NCBI GenBank assembly: GCA_019694805.1
Contig: JAIBBG010000003.1
Coordinates: forward strand, 124,001-188,000
Origin: Flavobacteriales bacterium
GTDB taxonomy: Bacteria; Bacteroidota; Bacteroidia; Flavobacteriales_D; Sanyastnellaceae
Reading direction: 5' to 3'
DNA length: 64,000 nucleotides
Shown: in pieces, positions 1-60,702 of the stretch
Numbering within the stretch: the first letter of the stretch is position 1
Layout of the letters: every line of letters begins with the position of its first letter
The notes under the pieces: generated by a model
What the model was told of the DNA's origin: nothing
Databases searched by the model: none
What the model saw: the letters and a program-made list of their open reading frames with translations, nothing else
Made by a program: the position numbers and the translations under genes

Positions 1-132
1 ATCATCATAGTTCACCACATATCTTCTACACATTCCCATCATCACCGGAAACACGATGCTGTACAACTCCGTCTGCGATCGACGATCGCTTTTGACGCAT
101 TGCTGTATGAGTTTCCGTGATACTTCTTTCAT
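1..132 (-). CDS. ECF sigma factor, 5' end only (cut by the left window edge)
   Basis: I read this from the reverse strand: an ATG at 132 opens a frame that runs through the window edge for 44 codons. The N-terminus contains LIQQCVKSDRRSQTELYSI followed by VMMGMCRRYVVNYDD. This is the start of sigma-70 region 2 as found in Bacteroidetes ECF factors (compare GCLEGNREMQYALWKKY in the sigma gene at 49983). Such factors direct RNA polymerase to a small regulon and are normally held by a membrane anti-sigma factor, whose gene would lie outside the window. A hairpin lies ten bases before the ATG. Only region 2.1 and part of 2.2 are visible, so the subgroup cannot be assigned. Confidence 0.78.
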   Translation of the reverse strand, partial: MKEVSRKLIQQCVKSDRRSQTELYSIVFPVMMGMCRRYVVNYDD

Positions 133-41500: not shown

Positions 41501-42252
41501 GCGTAGAGTTAGTAGATCCTACACAATGGGTGCAGACCGGTTCTGGATTTGATGTAGAATTGACTGATGGCACGAATCAATTCACGATGCATGTCGATTT
41601 GAACACTGACATTTTCCCAGCAGATGCTCCGGAAGGGCATTTCAATGTTATTGGTATCGGTGGTCAGGCTGACGCTGATTCTCCATTTGATGGCAATTAT
41701 GTATTCTGGCCAAGGATGCTTACAGATATGAATGGGTTCATCATTGCTTCTTTCACGCCTATTAGCACAATTGTATATGGTTTGGAAGGAGCGGGAGTTC
41801 AGATGACCAATGAAAGCACGGGTGGTGTGAGTTTCGAATGGGATTTCGGTGATGGCAACACTTCAGTGTTGACCGACCCAGCTCATACCTATACATATGC
41901 TTTTTTGAGTGGAATTTCTGACGTAGATATTTCTCTGAGTACAACAGATGCTTTTGGATGTACCGATGTTTATACAGAGACTGTCGAAGTGATTTTCACG
42001 TCTTTGGATGAAATGTCGCGCATTGACTTTAATTGTTATCCGAATCCGGCAAACGACCAGATTTGGATTCGAAGCGGCTTGCTGATGAGTAGTTTGTGTA
42101 TCAGCGACGCAATGGGCAACACAGTTTTGCGCTTTGATGGTGTGAATAGAGAAAATATTGGACTAGATATCAGCGGATTATCTGCTGGTGTTTATCATAT
42201 TTCTGTTTTCACCGAATCCGGATCTGGGGAAAGGACTTTTGTGAAGCAATAA
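38533..42252 (+). CDS. Large multidomain surface protein with lamin-tail domains and T9SS type A sorting domain
   Basis: A 1239-residue exported protein with a signal peptide ending in VLQSQ. Domain order, by motif and rough residue: a first lamin-tail-like domain (25-140, ATNEIRIKNFGATAVDITNY); a second LTD-like region (174-345, EVRINELDPDQPSTDTQEFI); and two copies of a ~115-residue module (349-459 and 460-578, each ending near D-C-Y-S-L-S or T-C-L-D-L-S). A further LTD (585-735, RLYISEYIEGNSNDKAIEIY), a Calx-beta domain (755-860), an OB-fold-like domain (870-990), a PKD domain (~1090-1150, SFEWDFGDGNTSV) and a type A sorting domain (1166-1239, NCYPNPANDQ) follow. Lamin-tail plus OB-fold domains often accompany secreted nucleases, but no nuclease core is visible. 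ATG 38542 is an alternative start. Confidence 0.85.
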   Translation: MSSMKRILLVLMVLCSGVLQSQIKFTYVNPATNEIRIKNFGATAVDITNYRFCALFEYANIPVGNVSIVTGDLNLAQGEEVAVSWNSSSGFNTSASDVGLYLPTGAFSSASSMVDFMQYGAGGQGRENVAVSAGLWTAGEFLTGTGPWYYIGSGAASGLDQWSDIDPASGPYTEVRINELDPDQPSTDTQEFIELFGAPGEVLDGLVIVFFNGSDNMSYASYDLDGEVLDENGFFVLGTALVPNVDMELLAADNNIQNGADGVAIYVGDGSAWPGGIMVTSTGLIDAVVYGTDDSPATTLIDTLIPGQSQLNTSANDALSFSRIPDGGDALDMLSYFSQDPTPGASNVPDCTGGNISVTSGTTDFCSDEVNAPLNIATTSIFGDNYLYFLTTEMDVIVASSTTGEFDMNGMGDGTYHVWGFSYNGLLDAASIAEGLPLSGVTSNDCYSLSQNFLTVVVTSCSADTCEGGVLSVVDSNSYISICSDGNADEYTFDHTIGGNADGYGYLVVDAVGGIVLFSPSATIDLNALPVGDYYVHGIAYFTGLDPNTIEAGDPITGVSTLGTCLDLSDNAIEVHVLSCAPVEGCTRLYISEYIEGNSNDKAIEIYNPTPFPVSLDDYDLFAYANGGLDFTAVVGLTGTIQPGDVYVIANSQASAGVLAEADMTAGLATFNGNDALVLTYNLEAIDVIGIVGNDPGINGWQFGLGSTVDHTLVRKLEVNAPTTDWVLSQGQWDVYGSSDITHLGNHNALACSGEAFVTFEAAAMQVEEDAGTVSITIHAYNVSVDVPITVDISGASAIEGQDFTTSVPVTLTFTPLNNEQTITLNIIDDLDEETLYEYITFTMSDDMDLATFVNQSITVSIAPSDQDYPFYTIAEVTEETTDGLADSLNVFCTITGIVHGINFNPAGTEFTLIQGNAGIKVFDADENFGYTVVEGDSILVLGQITQFMGMTEIFPDQIIYVDGGHTPETPALVTTLTEAHESRMVRMQCVELVDPTQWVQTGSGFDVELTDGTNQFTMHVDLNTDIFPADAPEGHFNVIGIGGQADADSPFDGNYVFWPRMLTDMNGFIIASFTPISTIVYGLEGAGVQMTNESTGGVSFEWDFGDGNTSVLTDPAHTYTYAFLSGISDVDISLSTTDAFGCTDVYTETVEVIFTSLDEMSRIDFNCYPNPANDQIWIRSGLLMSSLCISDAMGNTVLRFDGVNRENIGLDISGLSAGVYHISVFTESGSGERTFVKQ

Positions 42253-42310: not shown

Positions 42311-42509
42311 GGGCCCGATGCAATCTATTGTTCATTACTTTAGTCTGACAAGATGAATTCCATTGGGGGTTATAGGGTTTTTAAGGACGTGGTTAATTTC
42401 AGTTGTTAATAACCTTTGTGATTTATGCTGATATTGAGCCCGATTTTGTTGAGTTTTGAAAATTCCTTATATCCTGACCGTACAGAAATTTAATTGTTTA
42501 GTGAATTTC

Positions 42510-45500
42510 ATGAGATTAATCCGACTATTCTCTCTATTGGTTTTACTGCTTGGGTTCAACGCCCTGCGCGCCAACCACGTTCTTGGCGGAAACATTACCT
42601 GGGAATGTCTAGGGGCAGGTCAGTACGAGGTTACTTTTACTTTGTACAAAGACTGTTATGGAACGCCATCGGATCCAGCCACTGAGAGTATGTATTTTTA
42701 TCCCAGTGGTTGCGCCTCAGTACCTTTCTCTTTTGATCTCAGCTTTGTAAGTTCCACTGAAATTTCGGATTTGTGTGCGACGGAATTGGTCAATAGCTCG
42801 TGTAATAGTGGGGGCTTTCAGCCGGGAACTTCTCAAGTAGTTTATACTGGAGTAGTCACATTGGACCCCGGTTGCGTTTGGCAAGCCATATGGAACAATG
42901 GTGACTGGAATTATTTCGGCAATATGAATGCATTGCCTCAAAATGCATATTTTAGTTCTTTTATCGATACAAGTCAGCCATGTCAGGATTCTCCGGATAT
43001 CATTTCTACCGCTGCAGATCCTCAGATTCCTTATTTGTGTTTGAACACTCCGTTTACAATGACATTGCCGATGTCGAATCCGAACGGATATACGCTGAAC
43101 TATACCCTTGGAACCTGTCAAACAACTGGTGCTTCGACGAATACCTCTATTACAGCCAGTGGATATACCTTGCCTGCGGGGTTTACCTTAACAGGAAATC
43201 AAATCAACTGGACGCCTACACAGCTCGGTAATTATGCTGTATGCATAGAAATTGAGATCTATGATGGTCCGACCTATATTGGAACCATGACGGAGAATAT
43301 GGCCTTCGTTGTTCGGAACTGCTCACCATCCAACACCACATTCGACATTCCGCAAGTCACTTCGGTATCTGGCGGCACCGTGCAAAGCGGAAATAACAAC
43401 GTGTCGGTTTGTGTAGGTGATTCCTTGATATTTACTGTAGAAGCGAATAATCCTGTTCTAACCCGAGGAATTACCTTGAGTTACACTCCGATTCCAGGCT
43501 TGCCGTTATCCTTCACCCAAACCGGATTGAATCCAGCCGTTGGTACTTTTAGCTTATTGGCTACACCAGCTATGATAGGCGGATCCCCATACGTGTTGAA
43601 CATTCATGCCGTGGATGATGCTTGTCCTAATCCGGATACCGATGATATTACAGTGAACATTACGATCATTCCGAATATTGAGCTTGTCACTCAGGATACC
43701 ACCATTTGTTTTGGGCAAAACATTGCACTTCAAGCAACAGGGCTTAGCAACAACAACTACACATGGAACGTGCTTACCGGCGGCGATAATAGCCCAGCGC
43801 CAGCTAATAATGTGGCCACACAAAACATGACACCTGATTTTTCAACTTGTTATCGTGTGAGTGCTACTGGAATTCCTGCTCAATGTGCAAGTTCTGATAC
43901 TGTTTGTGTAGACGTAGCTATGACAGATTTGGATCTTAACTCTATGTCTGAAACGTGTGGCAACAACAATGGTGCGATTGACCTTACGGTTGAGGGCGAT
44001 GGTTCGGGTGATTATGATTATCAGTGGACGGGTATCAACACCATTGATGGTCAAGAGGATCAGTTTGGACTGAGCGGAGGCGTAGGTCAGAATTATTCGG
44101 TTGCAGTAACAGACAACATTTATGGTTGCACCCTGGTTGAATCTACCAACGTAGCTGATGTTGCCCAGCCCGCTTTGACATTCACGAGTGATACTACAAT
44201 ATGTAATGGAGGTACAGCGACATTAACGCTTGATTTCACAGCCGGAATAGCCCCATTCGATATTGATTTCTTGAATTCACCTCCTGCCGACGTCAACAAC
44301 GTACCTGATGGGTACACAGTGAACGTTTCGCCAACTACGACAACCACTTATACCATCTCTGATGTCACAGACAACTCAGGTTGCAATGCCGTGGTTAATC
44401 AATCGGTAACAGTTACTGTAAGGCCTTTGATCACCTCAGTGTTCAATCCTGAACCAGATATTTGCGTTGGTTCTAATCTGGTACTGGATATGGACCACAG
44501 CGCAGCCGGGAATTATAGTGTGGAATATTCCATCAATGGAGTATTGCAAGCGCCGGCTGTGGTTGTTGCGGACGGCGGAACACTAAACGTTCCAGATCCT
44601 GCAACGAGCGGAACATTTACATACGATATAGAATCTGTTTCTTATACCACCTTACCATTTTGTCCTAGTGGTGATGCCGCCAATCCTTCAATTACCGTTG
44701 TGGTTGATCCATTACCGACGGCTGTCCTTAGCGGAGACGCAACGGTTTGTGCAGGAGATTGTCACAATTTCACGTTGACACTCACTGGCACAGGACCTTG
44801 GGTAGTCAATTATACGATAGGAGGTGTTGCTCAGCCCGCTCTCAACGTACCTGCAGCAGCTTCCCCTTACAACTATACATGGCAAGTTTGTCCGGCAGCC
44901 AACTCGACTTATTGTATCACCGGTGTGCAGGATTCTAATTGTAGCAATACTGTTGCGGGGGAATGCGCGGTGCTCACTATTGCGCCATATCCAGTTGTAA
45001 ACTACTCAGTATTTGATGTGACCATTTGCGAAGGCACTTGCACCACTGCGAGTATTTCGGTGAACCCGGCGGGAACATATCATGTTGCCTGGGATGAATC
45101 TCCTGATGACACTGGTCTTGCAGCAACCGCAAACAACCTTAATGGCATTTACAGCCCACAACTTTGTCCAACTGTGGATACTGATTATTGTGTGGATTCT
45201 GTTTATTATAGTTCTACACCGCAATGTGCAACACAGGTGGATCAATGTATTACTGTTGAAGTAAATGGTGAAATAGCAGTGCAGGTTGTTGATACCATTT
45301 GCAACAATACATCAACACAATATCAGGTTGTATTTGAAGTGTCTGGCGGTACCATGCCTTACTACGAAGATCCTACTGGTGATAACACTACTGTGGATGG
45401 CACCGGAACAATATTCACCACAGCTTGGATTACAAGCGGATTAGGGGATGGGCCATGGATTTTTGGTGATGTGTATGACTGTAACAATATATCACTCTCC

Positions 45501-48500
45501 ATGTCGCCATACATATGTCCGGTGTTGACAGATGCCGGAACGATGGTGATCAATCCACAAACAGTATGCGGCAATACTGCTCTTACTGGAGTATGGAACA
45601 ATGACGGATATCTGGATGGAAATGACCAGCAAATGTTCATCCTGCATACCACTTCGAATGGTACATTGGGAACCGTCATCGCCACAGATTGTAATGATGC
45701 ATCATTCGGTGATGCTGATAGTCCGCTCTCATTTGGATTGGTTTCTGGAAATAATACCATTGTCAGTGGAACAACATATTATATCTCTTCAGTTGTAGGA
45801 GATGACAGTGGTGCAGGAGTAGGTGGTTGTGTTGCTACTGCTGCTCCAAACGTACAGATATCGCCCGGCACGCCAGTCACTTGGTATGCAGAACCCCAGG
45901 TAAATTATTCTATTGCTGATACAGAGCTTTGTTCAGGTGAATGTGCAACATTACATGCGACGGTTACTCCGGCATATCAATTTACCATTCAATTTTCAGA
46001 AACGCCGGCCGATCCAATATTAGGTCAGGCGACGGGGCAAAACAGTCCTTTTGACTATGTGGTTTGTCCGAATGAGACCACAGAATATTGTCTTGATTCG
46101 GTTTATTTCACAGGAGCGCCGCAATGTGCAACTGTGTTGAATCAGTGTATTACGGTGAACTTAAACGAAGATATTTCTGTTGTGGCCTCAGATACAATTT
46201 GCAACAACATTTCAACGCAGTATCAGGTGCAGTTTACAGTAAGTGGCGGTGAAACCCCTTATGATGAAGATCCTGCGGGGGTTAATGCAACACCAGATGT
46301 GAGCGGCACAGTATTTACAACTGGCTGGGTGAATAGCGGAAGCGGTTCTGGTCCTTATGTTTTCAGCGATGTCAACAATTGCAATAGTGTTTCAATGACC
46401 ATCAATCCTTATTCATGTCCGATCATTACGGAATCTGGGACAATGGATAATACATTGATCACTGTCTGTGGCGGTCAGGTCAATGCCAATAGCGGAAGTG
46501 GCGTATTCAATAACGATGCAGTTTTAGATGGCAATGACCAACAAATGTTTGTGTTGCACACAGGATCGGGAAGTACCCTGGGAACTATCATCGCAACCGA
46601 TTGTGATGATGCTGTTTTTGGTGACGCTGATTCTCCGCTCTCATTTGGCGCGGCTTCAGCAGCCGGTGTTATTGTTAGTGGCACTACCTATTATATTTCA
46701 TCTGTTGCTGGAGATGACAGCGGTGCTGGTGTCGGTGGATGTGTGAATCTGGCTGCGGCTAACGTTCAAATTTCAACGGGAGAACCAATCATTTGGTACC
46801 AGTCGTCCACCGCTACCGTTTCTTCACCAAATGGGTTGACAGCATGCGAGGGAGAAAACGTTGATTTGTTGATCACATTTACTGGTCAAGGACCTTGGAC
46901 AGTAGTTCCGCTCTTGGACAATGCTGTTCAGCCATCCATTACTGTGCCTGTTGGTGGAAACCCTTATACATGGTCAGTGAATGCTACAGGTAATTACTGT
47001 CTGCAAAGTGTTATCAATAGTCCTGAAGATTGTCCGGGTACAGTGAATGGGTGCGCCAACGTGCTCATTCATCCTTTACCAACCGCCACTTTCAGCGCAA
47101 GTGCTTCCACGTGTAGCGGAACAGATCACTGTTTTGACATTGATCTTACAGGAACCGCACCTTGGACTATTGAGATTAATGATCCGGATAATGTGAATGA
47201 GTTGATAAGCCAAACTTCTGATAACCCATACCAATATTGTGTTGGCGTTGCAGGGCCGTATTTGGTTGCCAATGTTACCGACGCGAATGGCTGCACCAAT
47301 CCAACAGACGGCCCGCAAGTGACACTTACAGTCAATGCGCTACCTACGATTCAATGGACATTTGGTGACAGTTCGTTTTGCGAAGGGTCGTGTATCGACC
47401 TTACGATGGCGATGTCAGGTCAATCAACATTCGACGTGAATATTATCAGCGCAGATCCCGCTGTAACTTCATCAGACCTTCAAAATATTGGTGCAGTATA
47501 CACAATCACCGTATGCGAGCCAGGAGATTATGAGTTGGTTGATGTCACTGATAGCAATGGTTGTGTGAGTACCGGTGGAGATATTATTCATCTGGATGAA
47601 ATACCCACACCTATCGCCGATGCTGGACCAGATGGGGGTATTTGTGCAGAAACAGGAACAACAATTGGAACTGCAGCCATAGCAGGACAAACATATTCTT
47701 GGTCACCGACCATCGGTATGGCTGCAGGTCAGTCCATTCTTGCGCAACCGACTGTCAACTTGAATGTGCCAAGCACTTACATCTACACTGTAACAGCCAC
47801 GGTTGAGCAGTGCAGTGCGACGGACGCAGTTCAGATCATCGTATATCCGCACCCAACAGTAAACATTTTGGCGGATGATGAAACACTATGTTTCGATTCC
47901 TGTGCAACACTTACAGCATCTGGAGCTGATACCTATGTTTGGGATGCTTCAGCGTCCATCAGTGGATCGGTCAATTCAAATGTCATTGATGTTTGCCCAT
48001 CTGCGGATGAAACATTCACGGTAACCGGATATGAAGACAACAATGGCGTTCAATGTTCTTCTACGGAGACCATTGATATCGTCATAGCCCCCGAATTAAC
48101 GGTAGCAGTGGATTACAGCACACAAGTCTGCTTCGGAACATGCGACGGTTTTGCTGACTTTACGATTGGAGGAGGTTATCCGTCGTATCAGGTCAATGGT
48201 GATCCATCCACTCAATGGACAGACCTTTGTCCTGGTACTTACGATTATGATGTCACTGATGTAGAAGGTTGTATCGTGTCGGGTCAGTTTATTGTTCAGG
48301 AAAGACCTGAAGAAATCATTGATTATGTAGTTTGGAATAATCCGATATGTTTCGGAGATGAAACAGGTCAAATCGTTATTGATGATGCTGACGGGACTAA
48401 TTTTACCCTTCAACCACCAACGGGGCCTGATATCATTGATGACATTCCGCCATATCAATATGATAATCTAGGTGCAGGCGATTACATTCTGAGCATGGAA

Positions 48501-49877
48501 GTGGAAGTTGAGCCAGGTATTATCTGCTATGCAGATACACCTGTGACACTTTTGAGTTTGTCTTCCGAGGTATTGGTGTCTGTTTTGAATGCTGGTGGAG
48601 TTTATTGTGGCAATGATGAAGTTTGTTTCAATACTGATGCATCTGGCGGCACAGGCAATTTGGCACTTCACTGGAGTGATTGTGCTCAAATCTCGGGCTG
48701 TGAAATTTCCATGGCCAATCCATTCTGTTTCGATATCATTCAGGACACCACACTTTATGTGTTTGCTGTAGATGAAAACAACTGCTCTTCTGATACGATT
48801 TCAGCATCCGCTTCTTTGTTCCCTGAAATTTCCTTTGATTTTGATGCAGCGATTGATACGGTGATTTGCCAGAACGATTGTACTGAACTTATAGCTCAGA
48901 CAAGTGGTGGTAATGGAAATATTCTTGTGAGTTGGTACCAAATACCAGTCGACAATGTCCCATTTTTTGTTGGTGATACAGCTACAGTTTGTCCGTTATT
49001 CGATACTGATTATTGGATAGAAGCGAGCGATGGTTGTTCGGTTCCTGTTTATGACACCATACATGTTACAGTTCATGAAACTCCTGTTGTCCTGTTTGAA
49101 ACTGACACCATGGAAGGCTGTTATCCTGCGCTGATTACTTTCTATGATCTCTCCTTACCACTCGTGGACGATCATACATGTCAATGGGGATTTGGAAATG
49201 ATGAAGTGATCGATTATTGTGGAGACACGACTTATACCTATCCAGACTATGGCAATTTCTATCCATCCTTGACCATAACGACAGAATATGGTTGTGTTGG
49301 TACGGATACACTGGACGACCCATTGATCATACATGGTTATCCTGAAATTGATTTTACATGGGAACCACAACCAGTAACGGTTTTGGAGCATGAAGTACAA
49401 TTCATCAACCACACTACCGGTGCTATTGGTTACGATTGGAATTTCTATTTCACCGGTACAAGTGAATTGGCCAATCCGAGTTGGAATTTCCCTGACATAG
49501 ATCAGGCCGATTTCGATGTGTGTTTAAGTGCTGTGAACCAGTTTGGTTGTGCTGATACTCTTTGTCAAATTATTGTCATTGAAAGTATTTTGGAGGTCTT
49601 TGTTCCCAATACATTCACTCCTGATGGCGATGGCATCAATGATGTCTTTTTGCCTTACGTCAGTGGTATTAAAAAGGAGACTTATAAATTCTGGATATTC
49701 AATCGTTGGGGCGACGTAGTATTTTATACGGAAGACTATGATAAGGCTTGGACTGGCGGATTTCAGACTGGAGAGTATTATGTTCAGGACGGCACTTATG
49801 GTTGGAGAATGGAAGTTGAGCCTATGACATCCAATGAAATAGAGGTATTTGAGGGGCATGTTAACATCCTCAGGTAG
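42510..49877 (+). CDS. Giant adhesin-like surface protein with T9SS type B sorting domain
   Basis: A 2455-residue exported protein. The signal peptide is RLIRLFSLLVLLLGFNALRA; an in-frame start 18 codons earlier (42456) is less likely. The N-terminal part (LGGNITWECLGAGQYEVTFT, LYKDCYGTPSDPA) is typical of large Bacteroidetes gliding-type proteins. The body is a chain of Ig-like and SprB-like repeats, for example CGNNNGAIDLTVEGDGSGDY near residue 480 and VCFGTCDGFADFTIGGGYPS near 1870, plus PKD-like units near the end. Two ~300-residue blocks are tandem duplicates (44995-46800). The last ~90 residues are a type B sorting domain: FVPNTFTPDGDGINDVFLPY, IFNRWGDVVFYTEDYDKAW, ending HVNILR. By analogy with SprB it is probably a filamentous adhesin. 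No enzymatic domain was seen. Confidence 0.85.
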   Translation: MRLIRLFSLLVLLLGFNALRANHVLGGNITWECLGAGQYEVTFTLYKDCYGTPSDPATESMYFYPSGCASVPFSFDLSFVSSTEISDLCATELVNSSCNSGGFQPGTSQVVYTGVVTLDPGCVWQAIWNNGDWNYFGNMNALPQNAYFSSFIDTSQPCQDSPDIISTAADPQIPYLCLNTPFTMTLPMSNPNGYTLNYTLGTCQTTGASTNTSITASGYTLPAGFTLTGNQINWTPTQLGNYAVCIEIEIYDGPTYIGTMTENMAFVVRNCSPSNTTFDIPQVTSVSGGTVQSGNNNVSVCVGDSLIFTVEANNPVLTRGITLSYTPIPGLPLSFTQTGLNPAVGTFSLLATPAMIGGSPYVLNIHAVDDACPNPDTDDITVNITIIPNIELVTQDTTICFGQNIALQATGLSNNNYTWNVLTGGDNSPAPANNVATQNMTPDFSTCYRVSATGIPAQCASSDTVCVDVAMTDLDLNSMSETCGNNNGAIDLTVEGDGSGDYDYQWTGINTIDGQEDQFGLSGGVGQNYSVAVTDNIYGCTLVESTNVADVAQPALTFTSDTTICNGGTATLTLDFTAGIAPFDIDFLNSPPADVNNVPDGYTVNVSPTTTTTYTISDVTDNSGCNAVVNQSVTVTVRPLITSVFNPEPDICVGSNLVLDMDHSAAGNYSVEYSINGVLQAPAVVVADGGTLNVPDPATSGTFTYDIESVSYTTLPFCPSGDAANPSITVVVDPLPTAVLSGDATVCAGDCHNFTLTLTGTGPWVVNYTIGGVAQPALNVPAAASPYNYTWQVCPAANSTYCITGVQDSNCSNTVAGECAVLTIAPYPVVNYSVFDVTICEGTCTTASISVNPAGTYHVAWDESPDDTGLAATANNLNGIYSPQLCPTVDTDYCVDSVYYSSTPQCATQVDQCITVEVNGEIAVQVVDTICNNTSTQYQVVFEVSGGTMPYYEDPTGDNTTVDGTGTIFTTAWITSGLGDGPWIFGDVYDCNNISLSMSPYICPVLTDAGTMVINPQTVCGNTALTGVWNNDGYLDGNDQQMFILHTTSNGTLGTVIATDCNDASFGDADSPLSFGLVSGNNTIVSGTTYYISSVVGDDSGAGVGGCVATAAPNVQISPGTPVTWYAEPQVNYSIADTELCSGECATLHATVTPAYQFTIQFSETPADPILGQATGQNSPFDYVVCPNETTEYCLDSVYFTGAPQCATVLNQCITVNLNEDISVVASDTICNNISTQYQVQFTVSGGETPYDEDPAGVNATPDVSGTVFTTGWVNSGSGSGPYVFSDVNNCNSVSMTINPYSCPIITESGTMDNTLITVCGGQVNANSGSGVFNNDAVLDGNDQQMFVLHTGSGSTLGTIIATDCDDAVFGDADSPLSFGAASAAGVIVSGTTYYISSVAGDDSGAGVGGCVNLAAANVQISTGEPIIWYQSSTATVSSPNGLTACEGENVDLLITFTGQGPWTVVPLLDNAVQPSITVPVGGNPYTWSVNATGNYCLQSVINSPEDCPGTVNGCANVLIHPLPTATFSASASTCSGTDHCFDIDLTGTAPWTIEINDPDNVNELISQTSDNPYQYCVGVAGPYLVANVTDANGCTNPTDGPQVTLTVNALPTIQWTFGDSSFCEGSCIDLTMAMSGQSTFDVNIISADPAVTSSDLQNIGAVYTITVCEPGDYELVDVTDSNGCVSTGGDIIHLDEIPTPIADAGPDGGICAETGTTIGTAAIAGQTYSWSPTIGMAAGQSILAQPTVNLNVPSTYIYTVTATVEQCSATDAVQIIVYPHPTVNILADDETLCFDSCATLTASGADTYVWDASASISGSVNSNVIDVCPSADETFTVTGYEDNNGVQCSSTETIDIVIAPELTVAVDYSTQVCFGTCDGFADFTIGGGYPSYQVNGDPSTQWTDLCPGTYDYDVTDVEGCIVSGQFIVQERPEEIIDYVVWNNPICFGDETGQIVIDDADGTNFTLQPPTGPDIIDDIPPYQYDNLGAGDYILSMEVEVEPGIICYADTPVTLLSLSSEVLVSVLNAGGVYCGNDEVCFNTDASGGTGNLALHWSDCAQISGCEISMANPFCFDIIQDTTLYVFAVDENNCSSDTISASASLFPEISFDFDAAIDTVICQNDCTELIAQTSGGNGNILVSWYQIPVDNVPFFVGDTATVCPLFDTDYWIEASDGCSVPVYDTIHVTVHETPVVLFETDTMEGCYPALITFYDLSLPLVDDHTCQWGFGNDEVIDYCGDTTYTYPDYGNFYPSLTITTEYGCVGTDTLDDPLIIHGYPEIDFTWEPQPVTVLEHEVQFINHTTGAIGYDWNFYFTGTSELANPSWNFPDIDQADFDVCLSAVNQFGCADTLCQIIVIESILEVFVPNTFTPDGDGINDVFLPYVSGIKKETYKFWIFNRWGDVVFYTEDYDKAWTGGFQTGEYYVQDGTYGWRMEVEPMTSNEIEVFEGHVNILR
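44995..46800 (+). repeat. Two tandem ~900-base coding repeats in the giant adhesin gene
   Basis: Unit 1 (about 44995-45893) and unit 2 (about 45894-46800) encode the same ~300-residue module. Both start with VNYS, contain TxYCxDSVYxxxxPQCAT, DTICNNxSTQYQV, DGNDQQMF[IV]LHT, FGDADSPLSFG and SGTTYYISSV, and end before a WY motif. The protein copies are clearly similar; DNA copies have diverged moderately. Boundaries are approximate. Confidence 0.8.
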
Positions 49878-49907: not shown

Positions 49908-49949
49908 TTGCCCGATGCAACTTTTTCAAGGCATCGGGCAACTTTTTTA
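49908..49949 (+). terminator. Rho-independent terminator after the giant adhesin gene
   Basis: Perfect stem TTGCCCGATGC (49908-49918)/GCATCGGGCAA (49931-49941) with a 12-base loop, then CTTTTTTAT. It separates the adhesin transcript from the sigma gene starting 34 nt later. Confidence 0.9.
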
Positions 49950-49982
49950 TAGGACAATCCATCAACCTAAGTGCATTGCAGC

Positions 49983-50528
49983 ATGACCGACCATGAATTA
50001 GCGAAGGGATGCCTGGAGGGAAACAGGGAGATGCAATATGCTCTTTGGAAAAAATACGCCGGGAAGATGATGAGCGTTTGTATGCGTTATTGCAATAGTC
50101 GGGAAGAAGCTCAAGATGTGTTGCAGGATGGATTTATCAAGGTTTTCGAAAAAATGTCCCAGTGGCAAGGAAGTGGCCCTTTAGGGGGTTGGATTCGGAC
50201 AATCATGGTAAATACCGCCTTGACGCATTTGCGCAATGCACACAAGTGGAGGAACAGCATTGATCTGGAGCATGCGGAAGAATTAGATGCCGAAGAAGTT
50301 GATGCGGTGAGTAAAATGAATGAAGAAACCTTATTAAAGCTGATAGAAAGGATGCCGGTAGGATACCGGACAGTCTTCAATCTGTTTGCCGTAGAAGGTT
50401 ATGGACATAAAGAAATTGCCGAAGCGTTGAACATTACAGAAAGCACTTCGAAGACACAATTTCTGAAAGCAAAGAATTGGTTAAAGAAAAATTTGGTAAC
50501 ACCAGGTGAAGCCATTGAAACAAATTGA
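49983..50528 (+). CDS. ECF-type sigma factor
   Basis: A 181-residue sigma-70 family factor. Region 2 covers residues 10-80 (AKGCLEGNREMQYALWKKYA, MMSVCMRYCNSREEAQDVLQ, DGFIKVFEKMSQWQGSGPLG, GWIRTIMVNTALTHLRN). Region 4 covers 115-170 (LIERMPVGYRTVFNLFAVEG, YGHKEIAEALNITESTSKTQ, FLKAKNWLKKNL). ATG 49983 is preferred over a GTG four codons upstream (49971). It overlaps the next gene by 23 nt if that starts at GTG 50506. No exact -7 box precedes it: TATATTTTG at about 49903 has one extra base. It closely resembles the partial sigma factor at 1-132. Confidence 0.93.
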   Translation: MTDHELAKGCLEGNREMQYALWKKYAGKMMSVCMRYCNSREEAQDVLQDGFIKVFEKMSQWQGSGPLGGWIRTIMVNTALTHLRNAHKWRNSIDLEHAEELDAEEVDAVSKMNEETLLKLIERMPVGYRTVFNLFAVEGYGHKEIAEALNITESTSKTQFLKAKNWLKKNLVTPGEAIETN

Positions 50529-51630
50529 CGAACATATCAGGCAGGTCTTTTCAGAGAAACTGGGGGAGTTGGAATCTCCAGTGCCTAATGAATTATGGAA
50601 TGCCGTTCAAGCCAAGATAAGTGTTGGCACTGCTGCAAATACAGCAGTAGTCGCGGGCTCAAAAGGCATTGCTGCGGTGATAAAAATTGTTGCTGCTGCC
50701 GTAGTTGTTGCGGGTGTCGCAGTGGCTGTTATCATGAACCAAAGCAGTGATGAAACTGGTGTGGTAGCACAAAAGGAAATTACCCAGCCTATCAAGGACC
50801 AGCAGAAGCCGGTAGAAAACCTGTCGACGATTCAAGAAAACGTTGTTACTCCTTCGATAGAGGAATCAGAAAACGTTAAATCTTTGATTCAGGAACCGCA
50901 AGTAGGTGAATTTAAATCTTCTGAAGAAATTCAAGATTCGCAAGAAAATTCCAAAAATGTTTATGAAAGAGATGGAGGCGAAGTGATGCCAATGGAGCAA
51001 CCCGGTTCCGTTCAGCCTCAAGGTTTAACAAACAAACGCGAAGATCAATCGCCGGGTCTGGAAAAGGCTGAGCATGCCGATGCAGAATCAGCGCGTGAGC
51101 AATCCATTCTTCATATCAGCTCAGCATTCGAAGTCAAGAAAGAAAATAACCACCAATTGACGGTTTCTTTCCACCCTGAATCGCACGGGGAATTCTCATA
51201 CGAATGGAGTTTTGGTGATGGAAATCAATCAGAAGCCATTAGTCCCTCTCATACTTATGATGCAGAAGGCGAATATTTGATCGTTCTACGAATCACGGAT
51301 AAGAATCAAAGAGTGATCACTTCAGAGCAGACCATTCAAGTATACAAGCCGGGTGCGGTAGTAATTCCCAATGTATTCACGCCGAATGGCGATGGCTCTA
51401 ATGACATTTTTGACCCATCGGTATTATCGCAGGCGGTTGATTTTGATAAAGTTGTTGTGTTCAATATGGCAGGTGTGAAGGTATTTGAAAGTCATGGAGA
51501 CAGCTTTTGGGATGGAAAAGATCCATCAGGCACTCCGTGTGAACCTGGACAATATCAATACATCATTTCTGCTCACGACAGGAATCATGAAATCCTCGAA
51601 AAGAAGGGCTACGTTACCCTTATTCGATAG
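50506..51630 (+). CDS. Membrane anti-sigma-like protein carrying a PKD domain and a T9SS type B sorting domain
   Basis: A 374-residue protein with an unusual layout. Residues 1-50 (IDEHIRQVFSEKLGELESPV, PNELWNAVQAKI) look like the cytoplasmic N-terminus of Bacteroidetes anti-sigma factors. A single membrane helix spans about 55-77 (AAVIKIVAAAVVVAGVAVAV). A Gln/Glu-rich linker (80-205) leads to a PKD domain (about 212-283, FSYEWSFGDGNQSEAISPSH) and a gliding-associated type B sorting domain (284-374: VVIPNVFTPNGDGSNDIFDP, WDGKDPSGTPCEPGQYQYII, ending TLIR). There is no cleavable signal peptide, so the N-terminus should stay inside the cell. It overlaps the sigma gene by 23 nt from GTG 50506 (TTG 50515 is an alternative). 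The role as anti-sigma is inferred from coupling and topology. Confidence 0.75.
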   Translation: MKPLKQIDEHIRQVFSEKLGELESPVPNELWNAVQAKISVGTAANTAVVAGSKGIAAVIKIVAAAVVVAGVAVAVIMNQSSDETGVVAQKEITQPIKDQQKPVENLSTIQENVVTPSIEESENVKSLIQEPQVGEFKSSEEIQDSQENSKNVYERDGGEVMPMEQPGSVQPQGLTNKREDQSPGLEKAEHADAESAREQSILHISSAFEVKKENNHQLTVSFHPESHGEFSYEWSFGDGNQSEAISPSHTYDAEGEYLIVLRITDKNQRVITSEQTIQVYKPGAVVIPNVFTPNGDGSNDIFDPSVLSQAVDFDKVVVFNMAGVKVFESHGDSFWDGKDPSGTPCEPGQYQYIISAHDRNHEILEKKGYVTLIR

Positions 51631-51648: not shown

Positions 51649-51727
51649 CATCCCTTCGAAAATTCGACCGAAGTCAAAGATGATGAAGCTTAACGATTAT
51701 CACCCGAAAGAATTTACAATCACTTCC

Positions 51728-54700
51728 ATGAGAAATTTCTTATTGCTGTGCGCTCTTTTTTTGGTGCAAACCACATCAATCATTGCTCAATCGAAATACA
51801 AAGCGCCGTTTAATGCGCGGTATTCTCCTGATATGACCATGGAAGAATTGTACGATACTACATTTCTCCAGAAGATGTCTAAGGAAGATTGGGTTAGATT
51901 CAGTCAGGATCCTCGTTTTGATGCTCAAAGGGTATCAGACATCAAAACAGCCTGGAAGGAAAATCACAAGCCATCTATGGCCATGCGCAAGTCTCTTCAG
52001 TCATCAGCCGAAGCGAATTGTACTTGGAAGGAACCAACCGACGACTATGAGCATCCCAATACCATCATGTGGCCTGGGAGTCCTGGAAACAGCACGGACA
52101 ACTATTCAGATCCAATCAATCTGGGATGGAATTTTAATTTCTTTGGAACCAACTACAATCAAGTTGTCTTAACAACGAAAGGAACTATCGTTCTTGGTAA
52201 TTCAGGTTACATTGATTTCACGCCATCAGCTTTCCCTGATCCACTGGCATCTGAGAGTAACCAACAATACAATCACATTGCTGCGTTTTGGACAGACTTT
52301 GATTTCGGTGCATCAGGAGATCTTTATTACCTCCTCACACCGGAAGGCCTTTGCGTGAACTACATAGACGTTGGTTATTGGCCAAATCAGGGCGACAAAG
52401 TGAATTCTATGCAAATCATCATCACTCCTGACGGAAGTAATTTGATCGGTGGTGGTAACAACGTTCAATTCACTTATTATGACATGCAATTTGCCAATAG
52501 CCAGATCAGTGGTGCTTCGGGTGGATGCCAGGCAACTACTAATCTAGCCAATGTGGGTTGTGACAAATCAAGCGGTACTCAGCACTATGCATTTGGTCGT
52601 TTTAACTTCTGCGACAGCGAGGTTTATAACGGGCCATATGGTGTTCAGGCAAATCAGCAAGATGGCGTGGATTGGTTGGATGGAAGGGTAATTGAATTCA
52701 ACACCAGTGTTACCAATTTCAACATCAATCAACCTCCGGTTGTTGTGGGTGAAGCTTGTGATACCATCACCATGTGTATTGGAGAGACTTTTAGTTTTGA
52801 TCTCACTTTTACCAGTCCTGAATCCAATCAAAATACTTCGATTACCTGGACACAAAGTGGAACAGGGTTTTCTGCGGGTTCCACCAGTGGCAATTACGCG
52901 GACCTCACAGACGCACTATTTGTGGCGAGTGCTACCAACGTCGGAAACAATACAGTTTCGATAACAGCGACTGATAATGGAACTCCAGCTGCAAGCACTA
53001 CCGTAACTTATGTCTTTATGGTGGAGGAAACGACGCCTCCTCCAATTGCCATTACAGGCGTCACGGCCATTTGCGCAGGAGGTGAAACGGTTCTCACTGC
53101 ATCGGAAGGTTTTGAGTACTATACCTGGAGCAACGGTCAACAAGGCCAGTCGGCTGAGGTGACATCACAAGGACCAATTACCGTCATTGGACATTATGGA
53201 AACTGCTCGGCAGTTGCAACGGTGAACATTGATGTAACACCGTATTTTATTCCACAGCTGGAAGGAGGCAATGCCCCTATTGAAATGTGTCCTGGTCAAG
53301 ATACCACAATTTGCGTTTTAGGTGATTATGTTTCTTATGAATGGTTTATCTATCCGGGATATGATGGAGAATTCGTAGCAGGAACTCCAACCAATGAGCC
53401 TTGCGCGCAGGTTACAGGTAATGTCAATGGTAACTATGGTATTCACGTAACAGATGAAAACGGTTGTGAGGGTGAGAACATCAAATTGATCACCATTACT
53501 GAATCATTTGTTTGTGAGAGCAATGATGACAACAATGGTGCTTATTGCAGCTCACTCGAGTCTGTTGATTTTTGTGGATATAGTAACCCCGCTGAAGACA
53601 ACCTTATCATCTATGGTTTAAGTACTAACCAAAATGGTTGGCAAGGTTCATACATCAACGTTTATATCTATCCGGCAGATGGTGGTCCTGTTGAAGAGTA
53701 TTTCTTCACAACATTCACCACTTTGGGCCAGCTGACCAGCATAATGATCGGCGCTGGGGATAGTATCTCAATAGAATATTTCGCCAATGGAAATAATTTC
53801 CAGGGTAACTCACTTTGGGTAATCAACTGCGGACAGACAGCACCAACGATCATTCCGGCACCACTTACAACGGGTGTTGTTTACAGTTCGATGTCTACAT
53901 GTTATCCAGAAGAACTTGCCGGAACATGGACAGTTTCCGGTCCAGCAGGATGGTCGATGACAGATATGACTCAAATGACATCCACATTCACACCGGGTGG
54001 ATTTGGTGTTTATGAATTGTGCTTCAATGATCCGGCATGCAGCATTGATCACTGCTATGATCTGATATATGCAGAACCTCCTACTATCGTTATGTCACCC
54101 GGGTTGAACATGATGTTATGCGACGACCAGACTACCAATCAATCAGTCGTTGTATCTGATGTGGGTGGAACTGGAACCGTATCATGGACTGGAACAAGTG
54201 TTGTACCAGCACCAGATCAAATGTCGGCCACAGCCGGGCCATATAATGGGTATACTCAAACAACCGTAACAGCAACAATCACCAATGTTTGCGGAACTGC
54301 TTCGGATTTCATCGATATTGAACATCAACCAGACGTTCCAGATCCGGTATTAAGTCTACAACATCTCTGTGAAAATGGATCTGTAACATTGGATCCAATT
54401 CCTTCGAATCAGGATAACCCGAATCTTGTATATGATTGGTCTCCAGGCAATGCAACTGGCTCAACATTGAATGTGACGCAGACTGGAACTTATTCAGTAG
54501 TTGTATCCAATGATTGCGATCAAAGCAATGAGGCGTCTGCACAAGTGGTTGGTGTGAATGCTGCGAATATTCAGAATAATCCAGATGATTACATTCTCAC
54601 ATGTGATCAAAGCGATGTTACACTCACCGTGAATTACAGCAATGCTTCTGAATACACCATCAATTGGACTGGTCCTAATACCTCGAATACGAATAGTGTT

Positions 54701-55324
54701 TTGGCAGATGAAGATGGAAACTATTGCTGGCAAGTGACCGACATTTATAATTGTAACACACTGGTACAGGGTTGCACAGAAGTAAATATTTCGAGCGCTC
54801 CACAGACATCTTCAGGAGGTGGTGACCTCATGGCGTTATGTCCAAATGAATGCGAAGCATTGGAAATCGTCGTAAACGCAGAAGACCCATCATTCTCTTG
54901 GTCTACCAGTTGTTCTGGTTATCCAATTGGTTCTTCAAGTGCTGCTATTGAATATTGTGCGAACCAAGTGCCACAAGAGTGCCTCGGTGTGCCAATCACC
55001 ATCACGGCAACTGTTTCAAATGAATGTGGTAGTGATCAAGCGACTTGGACAGTACAAACCAATGCTTGTGAAGTTTACATACCCAATGTATTCACTCCAA
55101 ACGGCGATTCTGAAAATAATGAGTTCTATATCCGCGGACTTGAGAACTACAATAACGTTGAGCTTTACGTATTCAATCGTTGGGGGAATAAAGTCTTTGA
55201 AAGTTCCAACTATCAAAACAATTGGAACGCAGAAGAACTCGCAGACGGAACCTATTGGTATCTTATCAAATTGCCATATGGTCAGAAGACCGAGTATAAA
55301 GGAAATATTACCATCATGAGATAA
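51728..55324 (+). CDS. Large surface protein with nidogen-like domain and T9SS type B sorting domain
   Basis: A 1198-residue exported protein; the signal peptide is RNFLLLCALFLVQTTSIIAQ. In-frame ATGs at 51680 and 51683 are alternative starts after the promoter. Residues ~132-320 resemble a nidogen (NIDO) domain: LGWNFNFFGTNYNQVVLTTK, YNHIAAFWTDFDFGASGDLY, VNSMQIIITPDGSNLI, NNVQFTYYDMQF. Ig-like/PKD-like beta modules follow, e.g. ICAGGETVLTASEGFEYYTW and MCPGQDTTICVLGDYVSYEW. The last ~84 residues form a type B sorting domain (VYIPNVFTPNGDSENNEFYI, VFNRWGNKVFESSNYQNNW, ending NITIMR). NIDO domains occur in extracellular adhesion proteins, so a role in surface attachment is plausible. It follows the sigma/anti-sigma pair. 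Confidence 0.83.
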   Translation: MRNFLLLCALFLVQTTSIIAQSKYKAPFNARYSPDMTMEELYDTTFLQKMSKEDWVRFSQDPRFDAQRVSDIKTAWKENHKPSMAMRKSLQSSAEANCTWKEPTDDYEHPNTIMWPGSPGNSTDNYSDPINLGWNFNFFGTNYNQVVLTTKGTIVLGNSGYIDFTPSAFPDPLASESNQQYNHIAAFWTDFDFGASGDLYYLLTPEGLCVNYIDVGYWPNQGDKVNSMQIIITPDGSNLIGGGNNVQFTYYDMQFANSQISGASGGCQATTNLANVGCDKSSGTQHYAFGRFNFCDSEVYNGPYGVQANQQDGVDWLDGRVIEFNTSVTNFNINQPPVVVGEACDTITMCIGETFSFDLTFTSPESNQNTSITWTQSGTGFSAGSTSGNYADLTDALFVASATNVGNNTVSITATDNGTPAASTTVTYVFMVEETTPPPIAITGVTAICAGGETVLTASEGFEYYTWSNGQQGQSAEVTSQGPITVIGHYGNCSAVATVNIDVTPYFIPQLEGGNAPIEMCPGQDTTICVLGDYVSYEWFIYPGYDGEFVAGTPTNEPCAQVTGNVNGNYGIHVTDENGCEGENIKLITITESFVCESNDDNNGAYCSSLESVDFCGYSNPAEDNLIIYGLSTNQNGWQGSYINVYIYPADGGPVEEYFFTTFTTLGQLTSIMIGAGDSISIEYFANGNNFQGNSLWVINCGQTAPTIIPAPLTTGVVYSSMSTCYPEELAGTWTVSGPAGWSMTDMTQMTSTFTPGGFGVYELCFNDPACSIDHCYDLIYAEPPTIVMSPGLNMMLCDDQTTNQSVVVSDVGGTGTVSWTGTSVVPAPDQMSATAGPYNGYTQTTVTATITNVCGTASDFIDIEHQPDVPDPVLSLQHLCENGSVTLDPIPSNQDNPNLVYDWSPGNATGSTLNVTQTGTYSVVVSNDCDQSNEASAQVVGVNAANIQNNPDDYILTCDQSDVTLTVNYSNASEYTINWTGPNTSNTNSVLADEDGNYCWQVTDIYNCNTLVQGCTEVNISSAPQTSSGGGDLMALCPNECEALEIVVNAEDPSFSWSTSCSGYPIGSSSAAIEYCANQVPQECLGVPITITATVSNECGSDQATWTVQTNACEVYIPNVFTPNGDSENNEFYIRGLENYNNVELYVFNRWGNKVFESSNYQNNWNAEELADGTYWYLIKLPYGQKTEYKGNITIMR

Positions 55325-58615: not shown

Positions 58616-59542
58616 TCAATCGTATGCTGCGCAAGGTACATGCAGCGGGTTGGGTTTTGTACACGCACGTATTCCAAGTATAATCTCGTGAGTACTCGCG
58701 CCATCATAGCGGATCTTGTTCATGGTAATGTCGTATGCATAAGCGACAGTGACATAGTTGACCACAGACAATTTGAGTAATGCGGAAAATCCATGACCTG
58801 ATCGTGCTGCGACACCAACGGCTACCATGTCTTTGTAGTCGAGGATAAACTGGGCGTCAATAGATGAGCGGCTTTTCCCGACATAATTGATGAGGAATGC
58901 GGGTTTAAAGCTCATTTCTTCGGTTAATCTCATGGCATAACCATTGGCGAAAGTGAAGTGCCTTTTGAGTCGGGTGTCTTGCGGGCCGTCAATTTTGGGG
59001 CTATTTACATTCCTGATGGAAAATCCATAGAAGCGATCGGGTCGGTATAACCATAATCCGGCATTGAATGTGGGGAAAACAAAGTCGTTGACTCCGCCGG
59101 TAATGACAGGGTCAATATCCTGAAGTTCGAGTGACATTTCACCGTAATCGATGGCATACTGCGCGAAACCCACACCAAGTCCACCAGCAAGGAAATATTT
59201 GTTGGAAAGCTTCATGTGGTGAGCCACCATGATATTAAGATTGGTATATCCGAATGGTCCCGCATCATCATTTTCCATGGTTGCCCCGATGCCTGTGAAT
59301 CGGAGTTTGCTGTCTTTGCCGATTTTCCCATGGAGGTTAGCGAATGCAGTATTTGGAGCTCCTTCGAAACCCTTCCATTGTCTTCTGTAGCCGAATTTAA
59401 GATCCAGACATGGGGCAGTTCCGGCGACTGCTGGATTGTATTGCAGATAATTATAGGTGAAAAAGGTAAAGTGCGATAATTGTTGCGCGTACATTTGGTA
59501 TACAGCAGCAAAAAGCAATATGAAAGCTATACCTTTTTTCAT
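58616..59542 (-). CDS. PorP/SprF family T9SS outer-membrane protein
   Basis: A 308-residue outer-membrane protein. The signal peptide (KKGIAFILLFAAVYQMYAQQ) is followed by FTFFTYNYLQYNPAVAGT, the standard PorP/SprF opening. Then come KFGYRRQWKGFEGAPNTAFA, ATMENDDAGPFGYTNLNIM, and LAGGLGVGFAQYAIDYGEMS. The C-terminal strands (VTVAYAYDITMNKI, STHEIILGIRAC) complete a ~14-strand FadL-like barrel. In Flavobacterium, SprF-type proteins are required for secretion of the type B cargo encoded next to them. Here the type B protein at 59545-60546 ends 2 nt before this ATG, a textbook pair. The tail after the last strand (CTKPNPLHVPCAAYD) contains two cysteines. Confidence 0.92.
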   Translation of the reverse strand: MKKGIAFILLFAAVYQMYAQQLSHFTFFTYNYLQYNPAVAGTAPCLDLKFGYRRQWKGFEGAPNTAFANLHGKIGKDSKLRFTGIGATMENDDAGPFGYTNLNIMVAHHMKLSNKYFLAGGLGVGFAQYAIDYGEMSLELQDIDPVITGGVNDFVFPTFNAGLWLYRPDRFYGFSIRNVNSPKIDGPQDTRLKRHFTFANGYAMRLTEEMSFKPAFLINYVGKSRSSIDAQFILDYKDMVAVGVAARSGHGFSALLKLSVVNYVTVAYAYDITMNKIRYDGASTHEIILGIRACTKPNPLHVPCAAYD

Positions 59543-59544
59543 GA

Positions 59545-60546
59545 TCAGTGTACGATACTGACGACTCCAGTTATGGGCGGAATGGTAACTTCAAGTGAGT
59601 TCAATTCAATGACGTAGTAGTATGGACCAGTAGGAATTTCCCTGCCTTTGTACGTTCCATCCCAAGGTTGGGCATAACCAACGGATTTGAAAATGCTCTG
59701 TCCCCATCGATCGAAAATTTCGATTTGACAGTTTGGGAATCGTTCAATGTATTTGATGCGAAATGAATCATTGATTCCATCACCATTTGGTGTGAAAGTA
59801 TTGTAGATAATCACGGGATCACTGACAGTGATGGATATCAGATCGGAAAGGGTACAGTCACCAACAGTGCCCGTAACCTGAAATGTAGTTGTGCCGTCTG
59901 GTGTTGCATTTGGATTTGTGCTTGTTGGATCATCTAAGAATTGAGCCGGCGCCCAATTGATAGAAGCTGTAGTATCCGCTCCGGCCACATTCAATTCAAC
60001 CGATTCACCAAGTGAGATAAGAATTTGTCCACTTGAGACACCTGCAACAATTTCAACTGCAGAACCGGAAATATTGATATCATAAGCACAAGGGCCATAA
60101 TTCACCACATCATGGTTGGACCCAACGATCACAATATAATCCTGATTGTCTGCAAGATTGGCAAGATCAATGGTGAAGTTGGAAGCACTATCTGCGAAAC
60201 ATTGAGGGTTAACCAAATTTGTCGGATCACAAGGATCTGTATTGGCCAGCAACGGAGCTACCAAAACTTGGATACTATCATTCCCAATAATGTCATCACA
60301 ATCATAATTGTTGATGACTATTTCAACGGAACTCACTTGAGCAATGCTGTTGGTATGAAATGAGTAATAAAAAGTTTCTGTAGCGTTGAAGCACGAAGTG
60401 TTCACCGGATTGGTCACCATGGTATCCACAGGTTGTGGGGTTCCCGAACACATGTAGTTATTCAATGCGTCTGCACAGCCTTGCGCTGTTGCCAGTAGGT
60501 TGGCAAAGCTCAATGAGCAGATCAGAAACATTCGCATGAATTTCAT
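59545..60546 (-). CDS. Small surface protein with T9SS type B sorting domain, partner of PorP/SprF
   Basis: A 333-residue exported protein. The signal peptide includes RMFLICSLSFANLLATAQ, followed by a domain with four or more cysteines (GCADALNNYMCSG, SCFNATETFYYSF, NNYDCDDI). This region reads like the C-rich beta-sandwich often seen before type B domains. A PKD/Ig-like part follows (VSSGQILISLGESVELNVAG, FQVTGTVGDCTLSDLISITV). The type B sorting domain is VIIYNTFTPNGDGINDSFRI, IEIFDRWGQSIFKSVGY, ending GVVSIVH. The frame reaches back to 60636; ATG 60546 (or 60537) begins the signal peptide. A TTCG-type -7 box (TATTTTCG, minus, 60572-60579) lies upstream. It pairs with the PorP/SprF gene 2 nt downstream. 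Confidence 0.87.
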   Translation of the reverse strand: MKFMRMFLICSLSFANLLATAQGCADALNNYMCSGTPQPVDTMVTNPVNTSCFNATETFYYSFHTNSIAQVSSVEIVINNYDCDDIIGNDSIQVLVAPLLANTDPCDPTNLVNPQCFADSASNFTIDLANLADNQDYIVIVGSNHDVVNYGPCAYDINISGSAVEIVAGVSSGQILISLGESVELNVAGADTTASINWAPAQFLDDPTSTNPNATPDGTTTFQVTGTVGDCTLSDLISITVSDPVIIYNTFTPNGDGINDSFRIKYIERFPNCQIEIFDRWGQSIFKSVGYAQPWDGTYKGREIPTGPYYYVIELNSLEVTIPPITGVVSIVH

Positions 60547-60702
60547 TACAAAACGATTGAACGAGAAAACGCGAAAATAGTTGGATGCGCAAGTGCAGGA
60601 AATGAAGTACAGCGTCATGTTGACGGTTTTTTGCACAACGTTTTCAGCATTTGATTGTTGTGCGAAGCCGTGACTTGGTTTTGCCTTGGTCTAAAGGGTT
60701 GA

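Follow-up and report, generated by a model that had tools for sequence, protein, structure and literature searches.

In the window (the whole stretch of 64,000 nucleotides that was analysed), the ORF at 49983..50528 on the forward strand encodes an ECF sigma factor of 181 amino acid residues with an ATG start, for which Sigma70_r2 and r4_2 score over cut-off and TIGR02937 also matches. The following gene on the same strand (50506..51630) starts with GTG, overlaps the sigma gene by 23 nt and encodes a protein of 374 residues, assigned as anti-sigma-like from Pfam and NCBIfam matches and from conservation in its family. Giant genes for type B proteins of the T9SS flank the pair on this strand. 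The one directly upstream (42456..49877) encodes an SprB-like protein with a type B sorting domain (CTD), and the one directly downstream (51680..55324, starting at 51680 or 51728) encodes a type B cargo protein with a Sec signal peptide and a CHU_C match of 77 bits. Just before the two giants sits a protein of 1239 residues (38533-42252) that has a type A sorting domain besides lamin-tail, Calx-beta-like and PKD-like domains. An ECF-type promoter motif, GCAACTTTTTTATAGGACAATCCATCA (49938..49964, forward strand; GCAACYTT-N14-VATCW), lies 45 nt before the sigma ATG. In addition, a terminator-like element at 49910-49950, made of a perfect inverted repeat (GCCCGATGC...GCATCGGGC) with a T-run behind it, lies at the end of the upstream giant gene and shares positions with the sigma promoter at its -35-like GCAACTTT.

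The anti-sigma-like protein opens with a motif of the cytoplasmic sigma-binding type (residues 8-42, 50527..50631, forward strand like the other features of this gene; ..LF..KL...E.PVP..LW..V...I), in which W31 is invariant and V26 nearly so, and residues 21-113 weakly match the generic NCBIfam 'antisigma' model. Its sole hydrophobic segment is a transmembrane helix at about residues 56-78 (50671..50739; hydropathy 2.82), whose N side is net positive and C side net negative, as for positive-inside charges. There is no Sec signal peptide at the start of the protein, where about 55 residues precede the only helix; in the relatives the helix begins after some 45-60 residues, which sets it apart from the Sec signal peptides that the neighbouring cargo carries. 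The helix is followed by a disordered tether (residues 79-206, 50740..51123; pLDDT <50), of which the length is kept (130 ± 22 residues in 39 relatives, with or without a PKD domain after it) and the sequence is not. A PKD domain comes next (residues 207-280, 51124..51345; PF18911, E-value 3.9e-13), where the PKD_4 match spans residues 210-277 well over cut-off and PKD folds top the PDB search, and the protein ends in a type B CTD-like domain (residues 286-374, 51361..51627). In the AlphaFold model, there are helices at residues 5-22, 28-39 and 65-76, low confidence indicating disorder at about 79-201, and two beta-sandwiches with pLDDT >90 for the PKD domain and the CTD. Mean pairwise identity in the family is 30% for the N-terminal motif, 16% for the tether, 33% for the PKD domain and 35% for the CTD; the invariant residues are W31 in the anti-sigma motif and P293, G297, W335, G337 and Y350 in the CTD, with further ones in the PKD domain. 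The anti-sigma-like N-terminus, the single helix, the PKD domain and the absent signal peptide, all claimed in the earlier note, are thus confirmed by Pfam/NCBIfam, hydropathy and AlphaFold.

A taxonomic survey of the fusion, which the earlier note had proposed, found the pair of sigma factor and CTD-bearing anti-sigma protein to recur. The full-length anti-sigma protein is present in 17 of the 40 genomes searched, the genome of the window included, and these full-length relatives show 22-31% identity. In all 17 of these genomes a sigma ortholog is directly upstream, mostly overlapping and otherwise at most 4 nt away, so that the claimed coupling of an ECF sigma factor to this protein is borne out; the window's sigma factor has 45-67% identity to its orthologs in the 16 other genomes. 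An eighteenth member, L039, is cut by a contig end and stands outside the 17-genome count; both L039 and L051 were counted as family members and not as cargo. Taking the conserved motif and the gene pairing together, the window protein is very probably the anti-sigma factor of the adjoining sigma factor.

The CTD keeps the fold of a type B sorting domain without the complete signature of cargo. CHU_C (PF13585) matches residues 286-372 with 59.9 bits against a cut-off of 27 (E-value 2.7e-16), while TIGR04131 scores 32.9, just under its cut-off of 35. Like the type B cargo proteins (SprB and PG1035, defined by TIGR04131/PF13585 and served by PorP/SprF shuttles), the window protein has the CTD fold, FTPNGDGxND, WDG and the C-terminal Arg, and it likewise has a PKD domain before the CTD. 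Unlike them, it has no Sec signal peptide, is anchored in the inner membrane, is coupled to a sigma factor and lacks part of the conserved cargo motifs, since the RW of RWG, which was among the motifs seen in cargo, is replaced by MA. The same holds for its relatives: the sigma-coupled CTDs retain FTPNGDGxND, the WDG Trp (in all of them), GxY and the C-terminal Arg, but the basic-aromatic pair RW is found in 0 of 42 sigma-coupled CTDs versus 42 of 48 cargo CTDs taken from these and related genomes (Fisher p 1.6e-19, without correction for kinship). The 42 comprise 41 distinct sequences, since locus L064 repeats L037. In L064 (CALQJP020000077.1, labelled Chryseobacterium gleum), both the sigma factor and the anti-sigma protein are identical to those of L037, which belongs to the window's own genus, and the Chryseobacterium gleum label is probably wrong. 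The claim that the sorting domain is complete therefore stands for the fold and not for the signature, because RW is absent and TIGR04131 stays under cut-off.

In F. johnsoniae, type B CTDs require cognate PorP/SprF shuttles, and in a type B CTD each of five conserved motifs is required for secretion (PMC12618676); we infer that RWG is one of these five. The loss of RW would fit a protein that must not be exported. It may also go back to one ancestral event, in which case it is less telling on present function. The CTD itself is under strong constraint, with dN/dS values of 0.060, 0.010 and 0.019 in three close pairs of relatives, which are below those of every other region save one helix without any replacement; it is therefore not a fossil. 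A sequence search of the PDB with a cargo CTD returned a good E-value for the giant GhpA chain of Aureispira alone, and in the fold search PKD-like sandwiches lead.

The neighbourhood of the pair links it to the T9SS. In all 13 family loci concerned (the window and 12 others), the giant cargo gene follows 49-109 nt after the anti-sigma gene (61-109 nt in the 12 others); it is followed by radA and, further on in several of these loci, by an SprF/CTD gene pair. The whole genome of 3.85 Mb has about 50 CHU_C matches in total, so the adjacency is far above chance, in genomes that are related to one another. For the upstream SprB-like giant, a relative in the same place occurs only in close genomes (L142-L144, L146 and L147). 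Loci outside the family often have the first pair on its own (L150, L151, L153-L155), a cargo neighbour is present in 7 of 24 named CTD-type loci, and no SprF gene was found within up to 6 kb on each side of the pair in 78 named loci. In the window, a PorP/SprF gene adjoins a type B CTD gene on the reverse strand (58616-60636), and such genes lie near the sigma locus in several relatives; its product is a candidate shuttle for the anti-sigma CTD.

The genome of the window has a second family of this type. On contig C66 (L240), a sigma gene is followed by a gene for a 432-residue protein in which a helix and two PKD domains precede a CTD-like end. This family (L240-L264) is conserved across the order; 23 of its 25 loci have a sigma gene upstream, and the other two are cut short. 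Its CTD-like end ranges from intact forms with FTPNGDGIND (L263) or FSPNGDGIND (L264) down to loop-less forms in the window's genus, and the TPNGDG loop is gone in many members. The WDG Trp is kept in 25 of 25 and RW occurs in none of the 25, which brings the absence of RW to 67 of 67 sigma-coupled CTDs over the two families. Together with the missing signal peptide, this agrees with the view of the earlier note that the window protein is no ordinary T9SS cargo. Moreover, 14 of the 20 loci read (L265-L284) have between one and three genes for giant type B CTD proteins directly downstream, and three further loci have long downstream open frames that are cut by the end of the stretch. The tie between sigma pair and T9SS that had been proposed thus holds as a genomic link, with giant type B proteins encoded directly downstream in two families.

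Upstream of the sigma gene, the strict pattern GCAAC[CT]TT-N14-[ACG][AGT]TC[AT] is found in 22 of 38 loci versus 0.018% of shuffled sequences, with the same internal spacing and 40-65 nt before the sigma start, and relaxed forms occur in most of the remaining loci; in the second family, the motif takes a form of its own, GGCAACC-N15-CGTC. In the genome of the window, the only zero-mismatch match to the local form of the motif is that of the sigma operon itself, and no other target of the motif is clearly conserved. On contig C54, a match with one mismatch precedes a giant type B gene, which was rejected as a target because the motif is not conserved before its relatives. The conserved motif ahead of the sigma gene suggests that the sigma factor most likely drives its own operon, and from the gene order it probably controls the downstream giant cargo gene in this family.

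The pair belongs to a wider kind of regulator. We collected the 80 nearest sigma relatives among named genomes, and in 78 cases the protein encoded next opens with a motif of this kind and a helix. Fluviicola chungangensis and Crocinitomix catalasitica are culturable carriers of CTD-type pairs. According to Pfam, 24 of the 78 end in CHU_C, 21 in an OMP_b-brl_2 barrel and two in a type A CTD. The N-terminal profiles of the CTD-type and barrel-type proteins match each other (P=5e-10), the two types have the promoter core in common, and the core in relaxed form precedes 22 of 54 sigma genes at the non-CTD loci of this kind. The window's genome carries both types: downstream of the closest paralog of the sigma gene, on contig C100, a protein with a barrel-like end is encoded. 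A further ECF sigma paralog spans the left edge of the window (1-117, contig C87:123587-124117, reverse strand); after it, beyond the window, comes a long protein of Dma-like plan whose end is barrel-like. In a sigma tree of 94 rows, the distribution of CTD and not-CTD ends needs four changes, and the AU test does not reject a single clade of CTD-type sigma factors (p-AU 0.075). A related anti-sigma protein at L104:6535-8214 combines a PKD domain with a sorting domain of type A, for which Por_Secre_tail scores over cut-off, and because of this the uptake of sorting domains by anti-sigma factors seems to have happened more than once. In L061, L062 and L063 (also in L065, L101, L117 and L134), the N-terminal anti-sigma motif is present two to three times before the membrane helix, which looks as if several sigma molecules could be bound.

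The closest parallel in layout is offered by the dual membrane-spanning anti-sigma factors (Dma), the first paper on which is reportedly Pardue et al. 2024 in PNAS. In Bacteroides, these proteins consist of an anti-sigma domain, a helix, a disordered tether and a beta-barrel, and the gene of an ECF21 sigma factor adjoins, as in Dma1/Das1 and Dma2/Das2 of Bacteroides thetaiotaomicron (PMC13088901). The window protein shares with them an ECF sigma gene adjacent on the same strand (17 of 17 genomes), a predicted N-terminal anti-sigma domain before a single transmembrane helix, the long disordered tether, a C-terminal module that presumably belongs at the outer membrane, the own operon as probable target and the occurrence in Bacteroidota. 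It differs in ending with the PKD and CHU_C beta-sandwiches of a T9SS-type end and in having giant T9SS cargo genes as neighbours, and it is not filed as a Dma because the defining barrel is absent. The statement that no system of this layout has been described hence does not apply up to the terminal module and stands for the sorting-domain end; our literature search brought up no description of a T9SS sorting domain on an anti-sigma factor.

The pairing of sigma and anti-sigma genes and their linkage to cargo genes are well supported, and an RW-less CTD beside giant-cargo genes suggests a sorting tag that is used as a sensor and not for export. We assume, with a probability of about 0.5, that the window protein is a Dma-like trans-envelope anti-sigma factor, whose non-exported CTD docks on the outer-membrane or T9SS side and controls the giant-cargo operon; as part of this explanation and with the same even odds, a T9SS sorting domain would take the place of the outer-membrane barrel in a Dma-like regulator. 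Judging from the conserved motif and the pairing, the N-terminus would keep the sigma factor at the inner membrane, and one helix with a disordered tether of about 130 residues could allow the folded PKD domain and CTD to reach the outer membrane. The CTD, presumably no longer an export tag and with its fold kept under strong selection, would there most likely dock on a partner of the T9SS or gliding side, that is, a PorP/SprF- or PorV-like barrel or a cargo protein. An altered contact of the CTD may then free the sigma factor, which would act on its own operon, including the giant type B T9SS surface protein if this is co-transcribed.

FlgM is a small, soluble protein that is exported, and the flagellar export state sets sigma-28, the driver of late cargo. 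A checkpoint of this sort is also conceivable here, in which the T9SS would take the CTD as a substrate and the anti-sigma factor would be pulled or cut when the system is competent, so that the sigma factor expresses the adjoining giant cargo; only a shared logic with FlgM/sigma-28 is possible, and no homology is claimed. That both sigma/CTD-anti-sigma families head giant type B cargo clusters is in line with this, as is the binding of type B proteins by PorP-like barrels (PMC9143113). In P. gingivalis, moreover, the CTD protein PorA acts upstream of PorXY-SigP, which controls T9SS genes (PMC7712824). PorA resembles the window protein as a CTD protein upstream of an ECF sigma factor, whereas PorXY-SigP is a two-component system, PorA has a signal peptide and is located at the surface, and no anti-sigma factor with a CTD takes part. 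However, recognition of the sigma-coupled CTDs as substrates is doubtful because of the loss of RW in all 67 and of the TPNGDG loop in many second-family members, and the membrane anchor is not a cleavable signal peptide, which makes such a checkpoint unlikely. We likewise consider it improbable that the PKD domain and CTD are a recycled beta-sandwich with no tie to the T9SS left, sensing a periplasmic ligand or envelope stress: the loss of RW, the degenerate CTD of the second family, the members without a PKD domain and the loci without cargo neighbours would agree with it, but the strong constraint on the CTD, the strong cargo adjacency and the occurrence of both type B and type A sorting domains on these anti-sigma factors argue against it. 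It is very improbable that the protein is ordinary T9SS cargo in which a long N-terminus precedes an internal, cleaved signal anchor, since the good CHU_C score is set against the conserved anti-sigma motif with its sigma pairing, the absent RW and a helix that in the relatives comes only after some 45-60 residues and so differs from the Sec signal peptides of the cargo next to it.

The preferred reading, a tethered CTD that serves as a T9SS sensor and is not exported, bears on the question of how T9SS-bearing Bacteroidota fit the output of giant surface proteins to secretion capacity, for which PorXY-SigP of P. gingivalis was the only described route found in the literature consulted. With its defined promoter motif and nearby cargo operon, a sigma pathway whose outer end is a sorting domain makes this question directly testable, and it would extend the Dma plan beyond outer-membrane barrels, to secretion-signal modules. 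We tentatively suggest, as a joint claim that may well fail in one of its parts, that T9SS sorting domains became sensors more than once, and that membrane-tethered CTDs disabled for export, carried by Dma-like anti-sigma factors, sense the state of type B secretion or of its shuttles and switch on giant-protein clusters. If the sensor reading is true, the system would be the T9SS counterpart of the flagellar export checkpoint.
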